DNA of 64,000 bases, taken from assembly GCF_020400655.1 (NCBI RefSeq), contig NZ_JAINRC010000014.1, positions 62,001-126,000 on the forward strand, written 5' to 3'. Below the pieces are notes generated by a model. The model made no database searches and was not told where the DNA came from. It saw nothing but the letters and a program-made list of their open reading frames with translations. This stretch comes from Streptomyces spinosus. Its GTDB lineage: Bacteria; Actinomycetota; Actinomycetes; Streptomycetales; Streptomycetaceae. Within the stretch, counting starts at the first letter, position 1. Every line of letters starts with the position of its first letter. A program made the position numbers and the translations under genes. Below are positions 2,251-9,647 of this stretch, piece by piece.

Positions 2251-3108
<858 letters not shown>

Positions 3109-3148
3109 CGGGTAGGAACCCGGAGACGAGCCGGCCGAGGGGGGAAGC

Positions 3149-3937
3149 GTGGGCGGGGTGACCACGGGGGTGCTGGTGCTCGGCGCCCTGCTGTGGGGCG
3201 CGCTGGCGGGGGCGCTGCTGCCCCGCGCGGCCTACCGCTTCGCCGTACCGTCCGGCGAGCCGTGGCGCGACCGCTGCCCCGGCGGCCGCCATCGGGTCCG
3301 CGGCTGGCTGGGCGGGGTCCGGTGCGGTGAGTGCGCGCGCGTGGGCGAACGCGGGGGAGCCGAGGGGCGCGTGCCCGTCACCGCGCACCAGCCGTACGCC
3401 CCCTCCGCGCCGCTCCTCGCCACCGCCACCGCCGTCGTCTGCGCCGCCCTCGCCGCCGCCACCGGCACCCGGCCGGAGCTGGCGGTGTGGCTGCTGCTCG
3501 CGCCCGCCGGCGTGCTCCTCGCCGCCGTCGACCTCCGGGTGCGGCGGCTGCCCGATCCGCTGACCCTCCCGCTCGCCGCCACCGCCCTCGCCCTGCTCGG
3601 CCTCGCCGCCCTGCTCCCCGAACACGCCGGCCACTGGCGCACCGCCCTCTACGGCGCCCTCGCGCTGGGCGCCGGCTACTACCTGCTGTACCGCGTCAAC
3701 CCGGGCGGCATGGGCTTCGGTGACGTGAAGCTGGCCGTGGGCGCGGGCGCCGTGCTCGGCTGGTACGGCTGGCCCACCGTGCTGCTCGGCACCTTCGCCG
3801 GCTTCCTGCTCGGCGCGCTCTACGGCGGCGCGCTCGTCCTGGCCCGGCGGGCGAGCCGGAAGACGGCCGTGCCGTTCGGCCCGTTCCTCCTCGCCGGCGC
3901 CCTCGCCGGGGTGCTGATCGGCGCGTACGCGGCCTGA
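3149..3937 (+). CDS. Prepilin peptidase, A24 family
   Basis: A 262-residue polytopic membrane protein with the two catalytic aspartates of type IV prepilin peptidases: D128 in AAVDLR and D192 in GFGDVKL. Before these are an N-terminal helix and a cytoplasmic loop with two CxxC-like cysteine pairs (C43; C59 and C62), reminiscent of the zinc-binding loop of PilD-type enzymes but incomplete. It probably cleaves leaders of Flp/Tad-type pilins encoded elsewhere, as no pilus gene is in the window. The start GTG 3149 follows a GAGGGGGGA ribosome site. It lies between mqnA and mqnC, with no obvious functional link to them. Confidence 0.85.
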   Translation: MGGVTTGVLVLGALLWGALAGALLPRAAYRFAVPSGEPWRDRCPGGRHRVRGWLGGVRCGECARVGERGGAEGRVPVTAHQPYAPSAPLLATATAVVCAALAAATGTRPELAVWLLLAPAGVLLAAVDLRVRRLPDPLTLPLAATALALLGLAALLPEHAGHWRTALYGALALGAGYYLLYRVNPGGMGFGDVKLAVGAGAVLGWYGWPTVLLGTFAGFLLGALYGGALVLARRASRKTAVPFGPFLLAGALAGVLIGAYAA

Positions 3938-4009
3938 GCGCGGGCGGCCGAAAGGGCTGGCGTAGGCTGACTCAGTCCGTCCACAACCCTTGACGAAAGG
4001 GACGCCCTG

Positions 4010-5209
4010 GTGACCGAGAAGGCCGACCTCACGTCTGTCCTCGACCGTGCCGCTGCCGGTGGGCGGATCACCCCGGAAGAGGCCCTCGTCCTCTACCGTG
4101 ACGCCCCCCTGCACGCCCTGGGCGCCGCCGCCGACGCGGTGCGCCGCCGCAAGTACGCGGGCATCGAGCACATCGCCACGTACATCATCGAGCGGAACAT
4201 CAACTACACGAACGTGTGTGTCACGGCGTGCAAGTTCTGCGCCTTCTACGCGGCCCCCAAGGACAAGGACAAGGGCTGGACGCGGGACCTGGACGACATC
4301 CTGCGCCGCTGCGCCGAGACCGTGGAGCTCGGCGGCACCCAGATCATGTTCCAGGGCGGCCACCACCCGGACTACGGCGTCGAGTACTACGAGAAGCACT
4401 TCCGGGCCATCAAGGAGGCCTTCCCGCAGCTCGTCATCCACTCCCTGGGCGCGTCCGAGGTCGAGCACATGGCCCGGATCAGCGGGGTCTCGGTGGAAGA
4501 GGCCATCACCCGTATCCACGAGGCCGGCCTGGACTCCTTCGCCGGCGCGGGCGCGGAACTGCTGCCCGAGCGCCCCCGCAAGGCCATCGCGCCCCTCAAG
4601 GAGAGCGGCGAGCGCTGGCTGGAGATCATGGAGACCGCGCACCGGCTGGGCGTCGAGTCCACCTCCACCATGCTGATGGGCACCGGCGAGACCAACGCCG
4701 AACGCATCGAGCACCTGCGGATGATCCGGGACGTACAGGACCGCACGGGCGGCTTCCGCGCGTTCATCCCGTACACCTACCAGCCCGAGAACAACCACCT
4801 GAAGGGCCGCACCCAGGCCACCCTCTTCGAGTACCTGCGGATGATCGCCATCGCCCGCCTCTTCCTGGACAACGTCCAGCACATCCAGGGCTCGTGGCTC
4901 ACCACCGGCAAGGAGGTCGGCCAGCTGTCCCTGCACTACGGCGCGGACGACCTCGGCTCGATCATGCTGGAGGAGAACGTGGTCTCCTCGGCCGGCGCCA
5001 AGCACCGCTCCAACCGCCTGGAGATCATCGACCTGATCCGCAAGGCGGACCGCGTCCCGGCGCAGCGCGCGACGACGTACGAGCACCTGGTCGTGCACGA
5101 CGACCCGGCGAACGACCCCGTGGACGACCGCGTGGTCTCCCACATCTCCTCCACGGCCATCGAGGGCGGCACCGCCCACCCCGAGCTGAAGCTGCTCGCG
5201 CCGAACTAG
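4010..5209 (+). CDS. mqnC: Cyclic dehypoxanthine futalosine synthase (radical SAM)
   Basis: A 399-residue radical SAM enzyme of MqnC type. The cluster-binding motif is C70-x3-C74-x2-C77 (CVTACKFC), and GGTQIMFQGGHHPDYG and GSWLTTGKEVGQLSL are typical of the MqnC/MqnE group. It converts dehypoxanthinyl futalosine to the cyclic form using 5'-deoxyadenosyl radical chemistry. MqnC rather than MqnE is chosen because of overall similarity as recalled, including the YHPQ-like and HYGADDLGS segments. The start GTG 4010 has GAAAGGGA upstream. A small amidohydrolase-like gene starts seven bases after its stop. Confidence 0.92.
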   Translation: MTEKADLTSVLDRAAAGGRITPEEALVLYRDAPLHALGAAADAVRRRKYAGIEHIATYIIERNINYTNVCVTACKFCAFYAAPKDKDKGWTRDLDDILRRCAETVELGGTQIMFQGGHHPDYGVEYYEKHFRAIKEAFPQLVIHSLGASEVEHMARISGVSVEEAITRIHEAGLDSFAGAGAELLPERPRKAIAPLKESGERWLEIMETAHRLGVESTSTMLMGTGETNAERIEHLRMIRDVQDRTGGFRAFIPYTYQPENNHLKGRTQATLFEYLRMIAIARLFLDNVQHIQGSWLTTGKEVGQLSLHYGADDLGSIMLEENVVSSAGAKHRSNRLEIIDLIRKADRVPAQRATTYEHLVVHDDPANDPVDDRVVSHISSTAIEGGTAHPELKLLAPN

Positions 5210-5216
5210 GGCCGCC

Positions 5217-5822
5217 GTGCTGACGATTCACGCGGACTCCAGGGGGCACGCCTTCCTCGTCAAGGGGGAGTGGATCGAGGCGGTCGGTCCCCTGGAGGAG
5301 CTGGCCGCCGCGCAGCCACGCGTGCGCGTGCGCGCCTGGCCCGGCATCGTCACGCCCGGGTTCGTCAACCCCTACGGCAACGAGCTGCTGGAGCGGACGT
5401 ACCACCCGGACCCTCGCGAGGCCGACGAGCTCGGCACCGAGCCGCTGACCGGGGACGCGCTCGGCTTGCTCACCCTGGACGACGCCCGCTGGGGCGCGAG
5501 TGCCCGGCGGGGCATCCAGCGCATGCTGACGTACGGCACGGTCGCCGTTGCCTGCGAGCCCTTCGGCAGCCGCGCGGTGCGCGACGCCGTACGGCGCAGC
5601 GGGCTCGGGGTCGTGGGACGGCTGGGCACCCCCGGCGATGCGCCCTCCCTGGACCCGTTCGGCTCCGCCCGGCCCGCCATGCCGGCGACCGAACGCCGCC
5701 AGGGCTCCGCCGCCCGCTTCGCCGTCTTCGACGTGCGCGACGAGGACGAGCTGGCCGAGCGGGGCGCGGGGACGTGCGTGGCGACGGTGGTGGCGGGACG
5801 GCTGGTGTTCCGCCGCCGCTGA
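5217..5822 (+). CDS. Degenerate amidohydrolase-like protein beside mqnC
   Basis: A 201-residue protein resembling the composite beta domain and first part of the barrel of amidohydrolases such as imidazolonepropionase and aminodeoxyfutalosine deaminase. PGIVTPGFVN is the usual lead-in to the metal-binding HxH, but here the next residues are PYGNELLE, with no histidines. The later stretch LGTEPLTGDAL, ASARRGIQRML and YGTVAV keeps the family pattern. It ends with ATVVAGRLVFRRR, the usual terminal beta strand, so most of the barrel is missing. It starts GTG seven bases after mqnC. It is probably non-catalytic; a binding or accessory role in the futalosine pathway is only inferred. Confidence 0.75.
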   Translation: MLTIHADSRGHAFLVKGEWIEAVGPLEELAAAQPRVRVRAWPGIVTPGFVNPYGNELLERTYHPDPREADELGTEPLTGDALGLLTLDDARWGASARRGIQRMLTYGTVAVACEPFGSRAVRDAVRRSGLGVVGRLGTPGDAPSLDPFGSARPAMPATERRQGSAARFAVFDVRDEDELAERGAGTCVATVVAGRLVFRRR

Positions 5823-5861: not shown

Positions 5862-6863
5862 TCAGCCGGAGAAGCGGCGTGCGAAGGCGCCCGGCGTCTG
5901 GCTCACCCCGCTGCAGTCCGTGGCCGCGTCGTCCTGCCCGGACCGCCCCTTCGCGCACTGCCGGTCCCGGAACGCCGACCACATCGACACCCAGGCGAGC
6001 CTCTTCCGCTCCGCGAACGTCCGCACCTGGTCGGCGTCGGACAGCGTGAACGTCTCCCCGGCCACGTCGTTGACGCCGATCATGGAGGTCAGCGCCATGC
6101 CCCGCCAGGCATCCGCGTCCGACAGCCCGAACACCTTCTCCAGCTGGGCGTGGGCCGCCGTCGCGGAGGTCACGGCGTAGTCCCCCATGTCCCCGTCGTA
6201 CGACTCGCCGTAGTTCATGGTCATGAGATTGACCGTGGAGACCTGAACGTCGTACGTGTTCGCGGACTCCAGCAGCGCCAGACCGTCCGCGTCGAGTCCC
6301 GAGGGCATCACCGGGAGGGTGAAGGAGACCCTCAGGTCCGGTCGTTCCTCCTGCAACCGCGCTATCGCCCGCGAACGCAGGGCGATCGAGGCGGAGTTCG
6401 TCAGTTCGTCCCCCTCGATGTCGAAGTCGGCCGCACTGGAACCGGCCGCGTCCAGCGCCTCTCCGTACGCGGCGGCGAGTTCCGAAACGCTGTCGCAGGC
6501 GGCGGCCAACTCCTTTCCGGAGGCGCCGCCGAACGAAACACGGACGTCGGCTCCCGTTTTCCTCAGCGAGGATGTCCGGGACGTCACGGCGGAATCGGTG
6601 ATCGCCTCGGTGCCGTTCCACTTTGGCGTACAGCCACTGCCCCCGGAGATCACGAAGGCGAGGTTGTACGTCGCCGGGGACCCGGCGGCCTCGGTGGCCG
6701 CGACCTCGGTGGCGCTGACGTAGGGGGCGTAGACGGTGCTGGTCACGGGGGCGGTGCCGGAGACGGCGGCGTGCGGTGCGCTCGCGGCCCCGGCGGAACA
6801 ACCCGTCACCGCGAGCACGGCCGCGCAGCCGGCCCCGGCCATCGGCCTCAGTGGACTCCTCAT
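5862..6863 (-). CDS. Secreted GH18-like (chitinase-type) lipoprotein
   Basis: A 333-residue protein with a short basic N-terminus, a hydrophobic stretch and a lipobox-like VTGC ending at Cys22, so likely exported and lipidated. The GH18 signature appears as ADFDIEGDE (D146, D148, E150), with E150 the expected catalytic acid, and VRVSFGGASGKEL precedes it as in actinobacterial chitinase-like proteins. Substrate could be chitin or another GlcNAc polymer. The ATG at 6863 was chosen to keep the positive charges; 6842 is an alternative with GAGG upstream. It is divergent from an exopolysaccharide cluster, so it might trim that polymer. Confidence 0.78.
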   Translation of the reverse strand: MRSPLRPMAGAGCAAVLAVTGCSAGAASAPHAAVSGTAPVTSTVYAPYVSATEVAATEAAGSPATYNLAFVISGGSGCTPKWNGTEAITDSAVTSRTSSLRKTGADVRVSFGGASGKELAAACDSVSELAAAYGEALDAAGSSAADFDIEGDELTNSASIALRSRAIARLQEERPDLRVSFTLPVMPSGLDADGLALLESANTYDVQVSTVNLMTMNYGESYDGDMGDYAVTSATAAHAQLEKVFGLSDADAWRGMALTSMIGVNDVAGETFTLSDADQVRTFAERKRLAWVSMWSAFRDRQCAKGRSGQDDAATDCSGVSQTPGAFARRFSG

Positions 6864-6939
6864 GGGAGGAAATCTCTCACACCGGGGTGTGCATTTCGTC
6901 CGTTCTCTCAGCTCGCCGACAGGTTGACGGCGCCTCCAT

Positions 6940-6979
6940 GGGCGGCTCACAAGGATTTCGGGCGGCTCACAAGAATTCC
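6940..6979. repeat. Two 20-bp direct repeats in a divergent promoter region
   Basis: GGGCGGCTCACAAG occurs at 6940-6953 and again at 6960-6973, and the six following bases are also similar. The exact 20-bp period is about two helical turns, which would place two bound proteins on one DNA face. It lies between the GH18-like gene and the exopolysaccharide cluster. Confidence 0.6.
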
Positions 6980-7005
6980 AGAGAAAAGGCCACACAAAGC
7001 CTCTC

Positions 7006-7011
7006 TAATAT
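7006..7011 (+). promoter_or_regulatory. Candidate -10 element giving a leaderless transcript
   Basis: TAATAT ends only eight bases before the ATG at 7019, so transcription would begin at or next to the start codon. There is no ribosome site before that ATG. No good -35 is visible, so an activator at the upstream repeats is possible. Confidence 0.4.
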
Positions 7012-7018
7012 CCGGGGA

Positions 7019-7405
7019 ATGCAATCCGAACCCGCCATCGAAACTCCCGCCGCCGGGCGCGGTCGTCGCCGCGAACATGGCAACGGATCCCCCGTGGGAC
7101 CCGTGTTCGTGGACACCACCGGACGCCGGTCGAAGGCACTGCGCCGCCTCGGCCTGTTCCTCGGCGCCGTCTGCCTCGCCTACGCGGGCGTGCTCGCCGC
7201 CGCGTTCATGGGCTGGGGCACCTCGCTCAACCCGTCGTCCCTGCTGCCCTTCGGCGCAAGCGCCGAAGGCGGCCGGGCGCCCGGCGGGATGCGGCCCGAG
7301 GGCGGCATCGGCCGCCGGGCGGAGCTGCCGGACACCGTCCGGCCGACGGCCTCACCCCCCGCGTCCACGACCCGGTCCGCCTCCGCGTCCGCGGGCGCCA
7401 ACTGA
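7019..7405 (+). CDS. Small single-pass membrane protein of the exopolysaccharide cluster
   Basis: A 128-residue protein with an Arg-rich cytoplasmic N-terminus, one hydrophobic segment at about 43-65, then a Gly/Pro/Ser/Thr/Ala-rich outer tail. No catalytic motif is visible. It sits 19 bases upstream of the deacetylase/glycosyltransferase gene in the same direction, so is probably co-transcribed and may be an accessory or anchoring subunit. The ATG at 7019 lacks a ribosome site but lies at a predicted transcript start. An in-frame ATG at 6938 would add 27 residues. Confidence 0.65.
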   Translation: MQSEPAIETPAAGRGRRREHGNGSPVGPVFVDTTGRRSKALRRLGLFLGAVCLAYAGVLAAAFMGWGTSLNPSSLLPFGASAEGGRAPGGMRPEGGIGRRAELPDTVRPTASPPASTTRSASASAGAN

Positions 7406-7424
7406 GCGGAGCGCAGCGGCAGTC

Positions 7425-9647
7425 ATGACCACTTTGACGTCCTCCCGGGGCCGCAGGCGCGCGCCCACCCGCATCGAGCGCGCGGCAGGCAGGGCCGCGG
7501 CGCTGCAACGGCCCCGCGTCATCCTCGCCCTCCTGCTCCTGCTCGCGCTGACCTGCGCGATGCTGCTCGACGGATACCTGCGCGCCGAGGTCGGCGGCGA
7601 CCAGCGCGTGCGCAGCGGGGCCGACTCCAGCGAGGTCCCGGACACGATCCTCGACGGCGGCCCGATCCTCACCTTCCGGGGCGGCCAGGCCACCACGGTC
7701 TCCGTCCCCGCCAAGACCATCGCCCTCACCTTCGACGACGGCCCGAACCCGACCTGGACGCCCCAGGTCCTCGAAATCCTGCGCAAGTACGACGTCCCGG
7801 GCACGTTCTTCCTGGTCGGCTCGATGGTGACGCGCTACCCGGGCATCGTGCGGACGATGGTCGAACAGGGCAACGAGGTCGGCGTGCACACCTTCACGCA
7901 CGTCGACCTGTCGTACCAGTCCGCGTCCCGCGTCGACCGCGAGATGGAGCAGACGCAGCTCGCCCTCGCCGGCGCGGCCGGCATCACCACGACCCTGTTC
8001 CGGGCGCCGTACTCCTCCGAGACGGACGCCATCGACAACTACAGCTGGCCCGTCTACGAAAGGCTCGGCAAGGACGGCTACACCAGCGTCTTCGTCGACA
8101 CCGACAGCGACGACTGGAAGCGGCCGGGCGTCTCCGACATCGTGAAGTGGGCCACCCCGAAGGGCACCCAGGGTGCCTCGGTGCTCTTCCACGACGCGGG
8201 CGGCGAGCGCTCGCAGACGATCGCGGCGCTGCCTGAGTACATCGAGAAGATGAAGGCGAAGGGCTACACCTTCACCACCATCAGCGGCGTCATGGCGCAC
8301 CGGCGGACGGCGGGCGCCGGCACGACGGCCGGCCCGAGCCTCCAGGCCGCCCACCACCGGGCGACCGGACCGACCCTCTACGAGGGCAAGGCTCTCATCG
8401 CGGCCGTGGCCGTCGCCGAGTGGACCGTACCCACGCTGTCGGTCGGGCTGGCGATCGTCGGGGCTGCCGTGCTGGCCCGCTTCGGGATGATGCTGCTCCT
8501 CGCCCGCCGCCACCACCGGCAGCGCAACAGACGCCGGTTCGGCTGGGGCCCCGCGGTCACCGGGCCGGTGAGCGTGATCGTCCCGGCGTACAACGAGAAG
8601 GAGTGCATCGCCAACACCCTCCGGTCGCTCGCGCGCAGCACCCACCCGATCGAGATCATCGTGGTGGACGACGGCTCGACCGACGGCACCTCGCGGATCG
8701 CGCGCGACGCGGCCGGGTCGCTCGGCATGACGAACGTCCGGGTGATCCGCCAGGAGAACGCCGGCAAACCGGCCGCGCTGAACAACGGCGTGCGCAACGC
8801 GTCCTACGGCATCGTCGTCATGATGGACGGCGACACGGTCTTCGAACCGGACACCGTGCGTGAGCTGGTGCAGCCGTTCGCCGACCCGTCCGTCGGCGCG
8901 GTCGCCGGCAACGCCAAGGTCGGCAACCGCACCACCGTGATCGGGGCCTGGCAGCACATCGAGTACGTGATGGGCTTCAACCTCGACCGGCGCATGTACG
9001 ACCTGCTGCGCTGCATGCCCACCATCCCGGGCGCGATCGGTGCCTTCCGCCGGGACGCCGTGCTGGCGGCCGGCGGCATGAGCGAGGACACCCTCGCCGA
9101 GGACACCGACATCACCATCGCGATGCACCGCGCGGGCTGGCGGGTCGTCTACCAGGAGCACGCCCGGGCCTGGACGGAGGCACCCGGCTCGCTCAGGCAG
9201 CTCTGGTCCCAGCGCTACCGCTGGTCGTACGGCACGATGCAGGCCCTGTGGAAGCACCGCGGGTGCCTGACGGACCGGGGGCCCTCGGGCCGCTTCGGCC
9301 GTGTCGGCATGCCCCTGGTGGTGATCTTCCAGGTCGTCACGCCGCTGTTCGCCCCGCTCATCGACGTCTTCACCGTCTACTCGATGATCTTCGTCGACTT
9401 CCGGGCGGCCCTGCTGGCCTGGCTGGCGGTCCTCGGCGTCCAGCTCCTGTGCGCGGCCTACGCCTTCCGCCTCGACCGCGAGAAGTACCGCTACCTGCTG
9501 ATGATGCCCCTGCAGCAACTGGCCTACCGGCAGATTATGTACCTCGTCCTCATCCACTCCTGCGTCACCGCGCTCACCGGCGGCCGTCTGCGCTGGCAGA
9601 AGCTGAAGCGCACGGGCGAGGTCGGGACGCCGGCGGGGGCGGGCTGA
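7425..9647 (+). CDS. NodB polysaccharide deacetylase / GT2 glycosyltransferase fusion
   Basis: A 740-residue membrane protein. After a basic N-terminus and a helix at about 32-50 comes a NodB deacetylase domain (about 95-290) with TFDDGPN (D104, D105), metal ligands H155 and H159 in HTFTH, and RAPYS. A second membrane region (about 322-362) leads to a processive family-2 glycosyltransferase with DDGST (415-419), DGD (468-470), EDTD (559-562) and QRYRW (596-600), then further helices. The layout matches fusions that make and part-deacetylate poly-N-acetylglucosamine, such as the Streptomyces MatB-type enzyme. Start ATG 7425; upstream starts are in non-coding sequence. Confidence 0.9.
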   Translation: MTTLTSSRGRRRAPTRIERAAGRAAALQRPRVILALLLLLALTCAMLLDGYLRAEVGGDQRVRSGADSSEVPDTILDGGPILTFRGGQATTVSVPAKTIALTFDDGPNPTWTPQVLEILRKYDVPGTFFLVGSMVTRYPGIVRTMVEQGNEVGVHTFTHVDLSYQSASRVDREMEQTQLALAGAAGITTTLFRAPYSSETDAIDNYSWPVYERLGKDGYTSVFVDTDSDDWKRPGVSDIVKWATPKGTQGASVLFHDAGGERSQTIAALPEYIEKMKAKGYTFTTISGVMAHRRTAGAGTTAGPSLQAAHHRATGPTLYEGKALIAAVAVAEWTVPTLSVGLAIVGAAVLARFGMMLLLARRHHRQRNRRRFGWGPAVTGPVSVIVPAYNEKECIANTLRSLARSTHPIEIIVVDDGSTDGTSRIARDAAGSLGMTNVRVIRQENAGKPAALNNGVRNASYGIVVMMDGDTVFEPDTVRELVQPFADPSVGAVAGNAKVGNRTTVIGAWQHIEYVMGFNLDRRMYDLLRCMPTIPGAIGAFRRDAVLAAGGMSEDTLAEDTDITIAMHRAGWRVVYQEHARAWTEAPGSLRQLWSQRYRWSYGTMQALWKHRGCLTDRGPSGRFGRVGMPLVVIFQVVTPLFAPLIDVFTVYSMIFVDFRAALLAWLAVLGVQLLCAAYAFRLDREKYRYLLMMPLQQLAYRQIMYLVLIHSCVTALTGGRLRWQKLKRTGEVGTPAGAG

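Follow-up and report, generated by a model that had tools for sequence, protein, structure and literature searches.

The question raised by this locus is why an ORF whose product keeps part of an amidohydrolase without its metal site should stand directly after mqnC. In the window, as we call the whole stretch of 64,000 nucleotides of Streptomyces spinosus DNA analyzed here, the GTG start codon of this ORF lies 7 nt from the mqnC stop codon, the spacing that the sequence-only reading had given (Table 1). The mqnC gene itself scores 466 bits against TIGR03699, for which the NCBIfam cut-off is 428. G+C at the three codon positions of the ORF is 0.77, 0.56, and 0.94, a coding pattern present in its own frame and absent from the other two, and a search for a second copy in its own genome gave a best match of only E = 0.17. 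The convergent gene downstream (5862-6995, minus strand, 377 aa) encodes what is probably a secreted glycoside-hydrolase-like protein, a name that is a guess, and has a homologue in 37 of the 80 best loci of our named scan. SCO4550 is mqnC, and Streptomyces coelicolor and Acidothermus use a three-step route with an MqnX deaminase (PMC3937554). In searches of an open-access library, we found no paper on an mqnC-adjacent miniature protein.

Table 1. Positions in the window of the ORF, its predicted parts, and its neighbors
Feature	Position	Strand	Basis and remarks
Mini-amidohydrolase ORF (miniature), predicted catalytically dead descendant of an mqnC-linked amidohydrolase	5217..5822	+	201 aa, GTG start, TGA stop
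mqnC (cyclic dehypoxanthinyl futalosine synthase), upstream partner gene	4010..5209	+	NCBIfam TIGR03699
mqnA-type gene, upstream on the same strand	2260..3108	+	PF02621
Type IV leader peptidase-like gene, same cluster	3149-3937
N-terminal half of composite β-sandwich (residues 1-46), PF22039-like	5217..5354	+	PF22039 match at residues 12-34; model strands 2-6, 11-16, 19-25, 37-40
Barrel remnant, about β1-α1-β2-α2-β3 (residues 47-135)	5355..5621	+	Alignment and model; assignment of elements is our reading of the alignment
Lost HxH metal motif, Tyr-Gly-Asn for His-x-His	5373..5381	+	Alignment; register uncertain, insertion of about 4 residues
YHPDPRE	5400..5420	+	Invariant in 68/68 aligned relatives of about 200 aa; absent from full-length enzymes
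C-terminal half of composite domain, ending ...GRLVFRRR	5712..5822	+	Model, BLASTP, and comparison of C-termini

The fold of the window protein is predicted to be that of the amidohydrolase superfamily. Its match to Pfam PF22039 (an imidazolonepropionase-like composite domain) reaches 25.1 bits, under the gathering threshold of 25.5, and this domain is found at E ≤ 0.01 in 35 of 36 aligned relatives. When the window protein by itself was compared with PDB sequences, nothing matched at E ≤ 1. An AlphaFold2 model (68 sequences; pLDDT 95.7, pTM 0.90) retrieves 19 PDB chains at E ≤ 0.001 with Foldseek (best E = 1.7e-5), which are described as deaminases, imidazolonepropionase, ochratoxinase, or amidohydrolases and include the Helicobacter pylori aminofutalosine deaminase; VIA-align reaches Z 13.8 with 4dzh (187 residues, rmsd 2.9) and Z 12.5 with 7lkk. 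Query-normalized TM-scores are only about 0.45, which is expected because one piece is matched to two separated parts of a larger chain. The predicted structure has the composite β-sandwich and the barrel topology of the superfamily, the barrel being partial, and the unrelated fold that had been named beforehand as grounds for abandoning the amidohydrolase interpretation did not appear.

A full-length form of this protein is encoded beside mqnC in related actinomycetes. Genomes of the same order have their best matches to the window protein within long frames (>420 aa). In G037, a full-length gene (416-436 aa) directly follows mqnC, and both ends of the window protein, N- and C-terminal, are matched in a single frame with about 215 aa between them. 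Pairwise BLASTP of the window protein against a full-length mqnC neighbor aligns the N-terminal part at E = 1e-10 and the C-terminal part at E = 2e-8. Within the family Streptomycetaceae, the full-length gene directly follows mqnC in G064 and lies about 1.2 kb after it in G061; seven of the eight full-length loci in the family sample adjoin mqnC. In G038, from the same order, the distance is about 3.8 kb. At the class level, mqnC is present in 15 of 18 genomes with the full-length enzyme versus 50 of 197 overall. For the full-length protein, the Amidohydro_1 match scores 145 bits, and eight residues that we take to be metal-site residues from their role in amidohydrolases (H63, H65, H203, H205, E208, H263, H266, and D314, numbered as in L251) are invariant in 7/7 aligned full-length proteins. 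Its PDB relatives include DR_0824, Nis0429, and H. pylori aminofutalosine deaminase; Goble et al. 2013 reportedly found that DR_0824, Nis0429, and their relatives deaminate aminodeoxyfutalosine. The miniature descends from this full-length, mqnC-adjacent amidohydrolase of related actinomycetes; its descent and its loss of catalysis are both well supported. We infer, again with good support, that the full-length parent was the MqnX (COG0402-type) aminodeoxyfutalosine (AFL) deaminase of the futalosine pathway. Two full-length relatives are unusual in other respects. L041, from a genome without an mqnC match (G056), has no metal motifs, with VNAGTS for VNAHAH, LLPVAE for LHPHLAE, and ATGS for GTDS, and the family member G074 (L260/L261) has a full-length amidohydrolase but lacks both an MqnC match at E ≤ 1e-100 and a PF00962 enzyme of the window type.

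Compared with this parent, the miniature keeps both halves of the composite β-sandwich and roughly the initial third of the barrel, as judged from alignment and model, and the window protein is missing a barrel stretch of about 215 aa. At the HxH site, V-N-A-H-A-H of the full-length enzymes corresponds to V-N-P-Y-G-N in the window, so that the HxH is gone, although the register is uncertain. Six of the eight tracked metal-site positions (H203, H205, E208, H263, H266, and D314) are gaps in 116/116 miniatures; the first histidine of HxH is aligned in 59/116, in a single alignment of uncertain register, and one relative, L022, retains HAH at this site. A PSLDP remnant in the miniature aligns with SPSLDL of the full-length enzymes, and the invariant YHPDPRE is, from its distribution in the alignment, apparently a gain of the class of about 200 aa. 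Neither the HxH, nor the HxHxxE/H/D residues, nor the complete (β/α)8 barrel that characterize AFL deaminases (COG0402, MqnX) is found in the window protein, which shares with them common ancestry and the place after mqnC. Because the metal and catalytic residues are missing, we exclude deamination by the miniature. Its catalytic residues having been lost while the protein is still under selection (see below), the miniature is a pseudoenzyme. The sequence-only reading, which had seen an HxH replaced by Asn/Tyr/Gly and most of the barrel absent, was essentially right on the first point and agrees on the second with a model that extends only from about β1 to β3. It had further called the protein a relic, coupled to mqnC, of imidazolonepropionase- and AFL deaminase-type amidohydrolases, of which the relic, the coupling, and the AFL deaminase-type parent stand and the imidazolonepropionase part falls: membership of the imidazolonepropionase (HutI) family was rejected at 10.6 bits against a TIGR01224 cut-off of 298.15. 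The N-terminal composite strands of the miniature are like those of HutI/PF22039; in contrast to HutI, its genomic context and its parent belong to the futalosine pathway.

The distribution of the miniature follows mqnC. A homologue is present after mqnC in 37/37 genomes of the same genus in our first sample, and in 36/36 of those without masked bases it is directly after mqnC; in the remaining genome, G010 (L042), the gene contains masked bases, and the selection and alignment counts exclude this genome. Relatives are encoded by 463 of the 521 pattern matches in a named scan, and the best 80 of these 463 are all from Streptomyces or actinobacteria; among these 80 loci, mqnC is upstream in 78, the other two being cut by a contig end. 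The gap between mqnC and the ORF across the named loci ranges from 1 to 172 nt and is most commonly 7 nt. The short-form profile matches 224 of 249 Streptomycetaceae genomes, a number that includes 8 genomes with the full-length gene and at least three (G118, G194, and G184) without any form beside mqnC, and the miniature is carried by about 213 of the 249. The sequence-only reading had proposed conservation beside mqnC as a check, and the scattered, mqnC-independent pattern that would have spoken against it did not appear. In 14 mqnC-bearing loci of the family, no recognizable copy follows mqnC, and because of these loci we regard the miniature as dispensable and not strictly needed by the pathway. 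Near mqnC in 19 class-level genomes outside the family that have this gene and lack the full-length enzyme, no form was found with profiles checked on known positives. As separate observations, G013, G076, and G478 have second or third mqnC copies of high identity, and G060 and G317 each have one in-frame stop inside the mqnC match.

An ORF in a GC-rich genome might stay open by chance after its enzyme had been replaced, which would make the miniature an eroding relic, that is, a decaying pseudogene; its faster evolution relative to mqnC, the shortening to about 140 aa, and the complete loss in some lineages all fit this explanation. However, codon-model trees give omega values of 0.086, 0.096, 0.087, and 0.054 in four groups of 6, 8, 6, and 5 genomes (0.024-0.029 for mqnC in the same genomes), and third-position differences exceed those at second positions by 2.4-3.3 fold (5.3-6.3 for mqnC). 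The conserved C-terminus is reached by 116/116 unmasked copies, and when the window ORF is evolved neutrally in simulation to 10-20% divergence, only 23-55% of the copies stay open, even with indels left uncounted. Given these omega values, codon-position ratios, intact C-termini, and simulations, the protein sequence of the miniature is under purifying selection, less strict than that on MqnC, and the ORF is neither a chance frame nor a decaying pseudogene. Together with the confident predicted fold, these results lead us to disfavor strongly the eroding relic, which we consider very improbable.

A candidate for the enzyme that took over from the full-length form is found in the PF00962 (adenosine deaminase) family. 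In the genome of the window, the gene for this PF00962 enzyme lies on a different contig (G000 C7:83626-84597). Of 249 family genomes, 241 have this enzyme and the remaining 8 have the full-length amidohydrolase, with no overlap and no gap. In the class sample (n = 197), mqnC is present in 50 genomes, of which 15 have the full-length enzyme only, 27 the PF00962 enzyme only (46-100% identity), none both, and 8 neither. Fisher values for exclusivity are 3e-15 for the family and 2e-7 for the class; relatedness is ignored in both, and independence is overstated because the 8 full-length family genomes represent only 3 genera. The exclusivity in the family suggests an enzyme replacement followed by a single barrel excision. 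Two genomes of the same order (G038 and G046; L033 and L037) have both the full-length amidohydrolase and the PF00962 enzyme and are possible living intermediates of the replacement. For the mqnC-bearing genomes with neither deaminase type (G334, G335, G352, G367, G381, G412, G448, and G465), a further AFL deaminase or a bypass are suggested as alternatives. A first PF00962 tree, in which 7 rows on a very long branch are probably of the wrong strand, was used only to tell copy types apart. The window's PF00962 enzyme may be the orthologue of SAV_2595/SCO5662, which Goble et al. 2013 reportedly identified as an AFL deaminase. We propose this role with caution, because no NCBIfam family is matched by the frames neighboring the PF00962 gene, and the enzyme also occurs, at 62-71% identity, in mqnC-free genomes. 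The same pattern might be read as partnership, in which the miniature, without catalysis of its own, would assist the replacing PF00962 deaminase (or MqnB/MqnD) instead of MqnC; in the family, the miniature never occurs without the PF00962 enzyme, the 8 genomes lacking it having the full-length form. The enzyme is equally present in genomes without the miniature, however, and its gene is on a separate contig; we regard a partnership of this kind as improbable.

Our phylogenetic analyses place the loss of the barrel at one point. On an mqnC tree of 75 loci, from which L252 (the second mqnC copy of G076) was left out and in which L232 was counted as m140, full and not full are separated by one change (support 91/90), and the barrel was therefore most likely cut out once in Streptomycetaceae. 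In the tree of the protein itself, the class of about 140 aa (m140) and the class of about 200 aa each form one clade (99/95 and 100/97, respectively). On the mqnC tree, however, the m140 class requires 14 changes, 7 of them forced by well-supported branches. The window and G020 (L091) are 95.6% identical over window positions 2792-5235 and 91.4% over 5905-8437, and they carry different miniature classes (about 43% amino acid identity), the difference lying exactly at this gene; the best interpretation is a recombination that replaced one allele by the other. Among pairs with MqnC at least 97% identical, the ORF is less than 60% identical in 15/129, as compared with 0/90 for A24 and 0/40 for the downstream gene. 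Because 10 of these 15 discordant pairs involve G020, they mostly reflect one event, and it is the trees that support the wider interleaving.

The class swapping bears on two further explanations. The first is that the miniature has a function unrelated to menaquinone and stays by mqnC through its origin there and coupled translation, the swapping reflecting a fast-changing partner; two old monophyletic classes interleaved on the mqnC tree, the window and G020 differing just at this gene in a 91-96% identical background, and mqnC genomes without the miniature all accord with such a function. Yet no convincing copy away from mqnC was found where position was examined, and the link to mqnC has lasted through the whole family, and we consider the explanation rather unlikely. 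The second is that the element acts at the level of RNA or translational coupling, the protein being incidental, as the tight spacing after mqnC might suggest. Here the selection on amino acids, the variable gap length, and the little nucleotide sequence shared by the two classes all argue to the contrary, and we give this explanation scarcely any weight.

We posit instead that the job of the full-length AFL deaminase probably passed to the distantly related PF00962 enzyme, which would have freed the mqnC-linked amidohydrolase from catalysis; its catalytic barrel was, most simply, cut out once in Streptomycetaceae, and the remainder is kept directly after mqnC. We think it somewhat probable that this chain of descent, barrel excision, a selected and foldable remnant, and deaminase replacement is correct as a whole, the accessory step described next excluded. 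The leftover would be an accessory subunit without catalysis, made by translation coupled to that of MqnC, and might aid the assembly, stability, or regulation of MqnC or another futalosine enzyme via its composite β-sandwich and the open edge of its barrel. This is our best guess because the β-sandwich and the open barrel edge are plausible protein-binding surfaces and the gene is placed for MqnC-coupled translation, and the existence of genomes without the miniature accords with a helping or regulatory role, not an essential one; we propose such a role, with MqnC or with a complex of futalosine enzymes, only tentatively and consider it less likely than not. The more specific idea that barrel-less mini-amidohydrolases are, family-wide, a new futalosine accessory or regulatory subunit with two ancient allele classes, swapped between near-identical genomes as a cassette that tracks a changing partner, we hold to be doubtful.

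Known systems offer both a parent and a precedent. The COG0402 AFL deaminases (MqnX; Nis0429 3v7p, DR_0824 2imr, and H. pylori AFLDA 7lkj/7lkk) are PDB relatives of the full-length parent, and the miniature aligns with the full-length enzyme in both halves of the composite domain and in the first units of the barrel, its model also matching the known structures in fold; unlike these enzymes, it has neither the metal site nor about 215 aa of the barrel, and no deaminase activity would be expected of it. The Pseudomonas pseudo-dihydroorotase belongs to the amidohydrolase superfamily. As an inactive chain that works with an enzyme of the same pathway, it is a precedent for the miniature, although it is of full size and has a proven partner, whereas the barrel of the miniature is excised and its partner is only putative. 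Pseudomonas ATCase needs the inactive 45 kDa dihydroorotase chain for activity (PMC7053772).

The mqnC site thus holds an unusually complete natural record of the passage from enzyme to non-enzyme, with full-length, ~200-aa, and ~140-aa forms and loss all at one place and a candidate replacement enzyme of the PF00962 family accompanying it. This record makes testable the question of why a pathway retains the scaffold of an enzyme that it no longer uses, and it points to an unrecognized protein in the futalosine route of Streptomyces.
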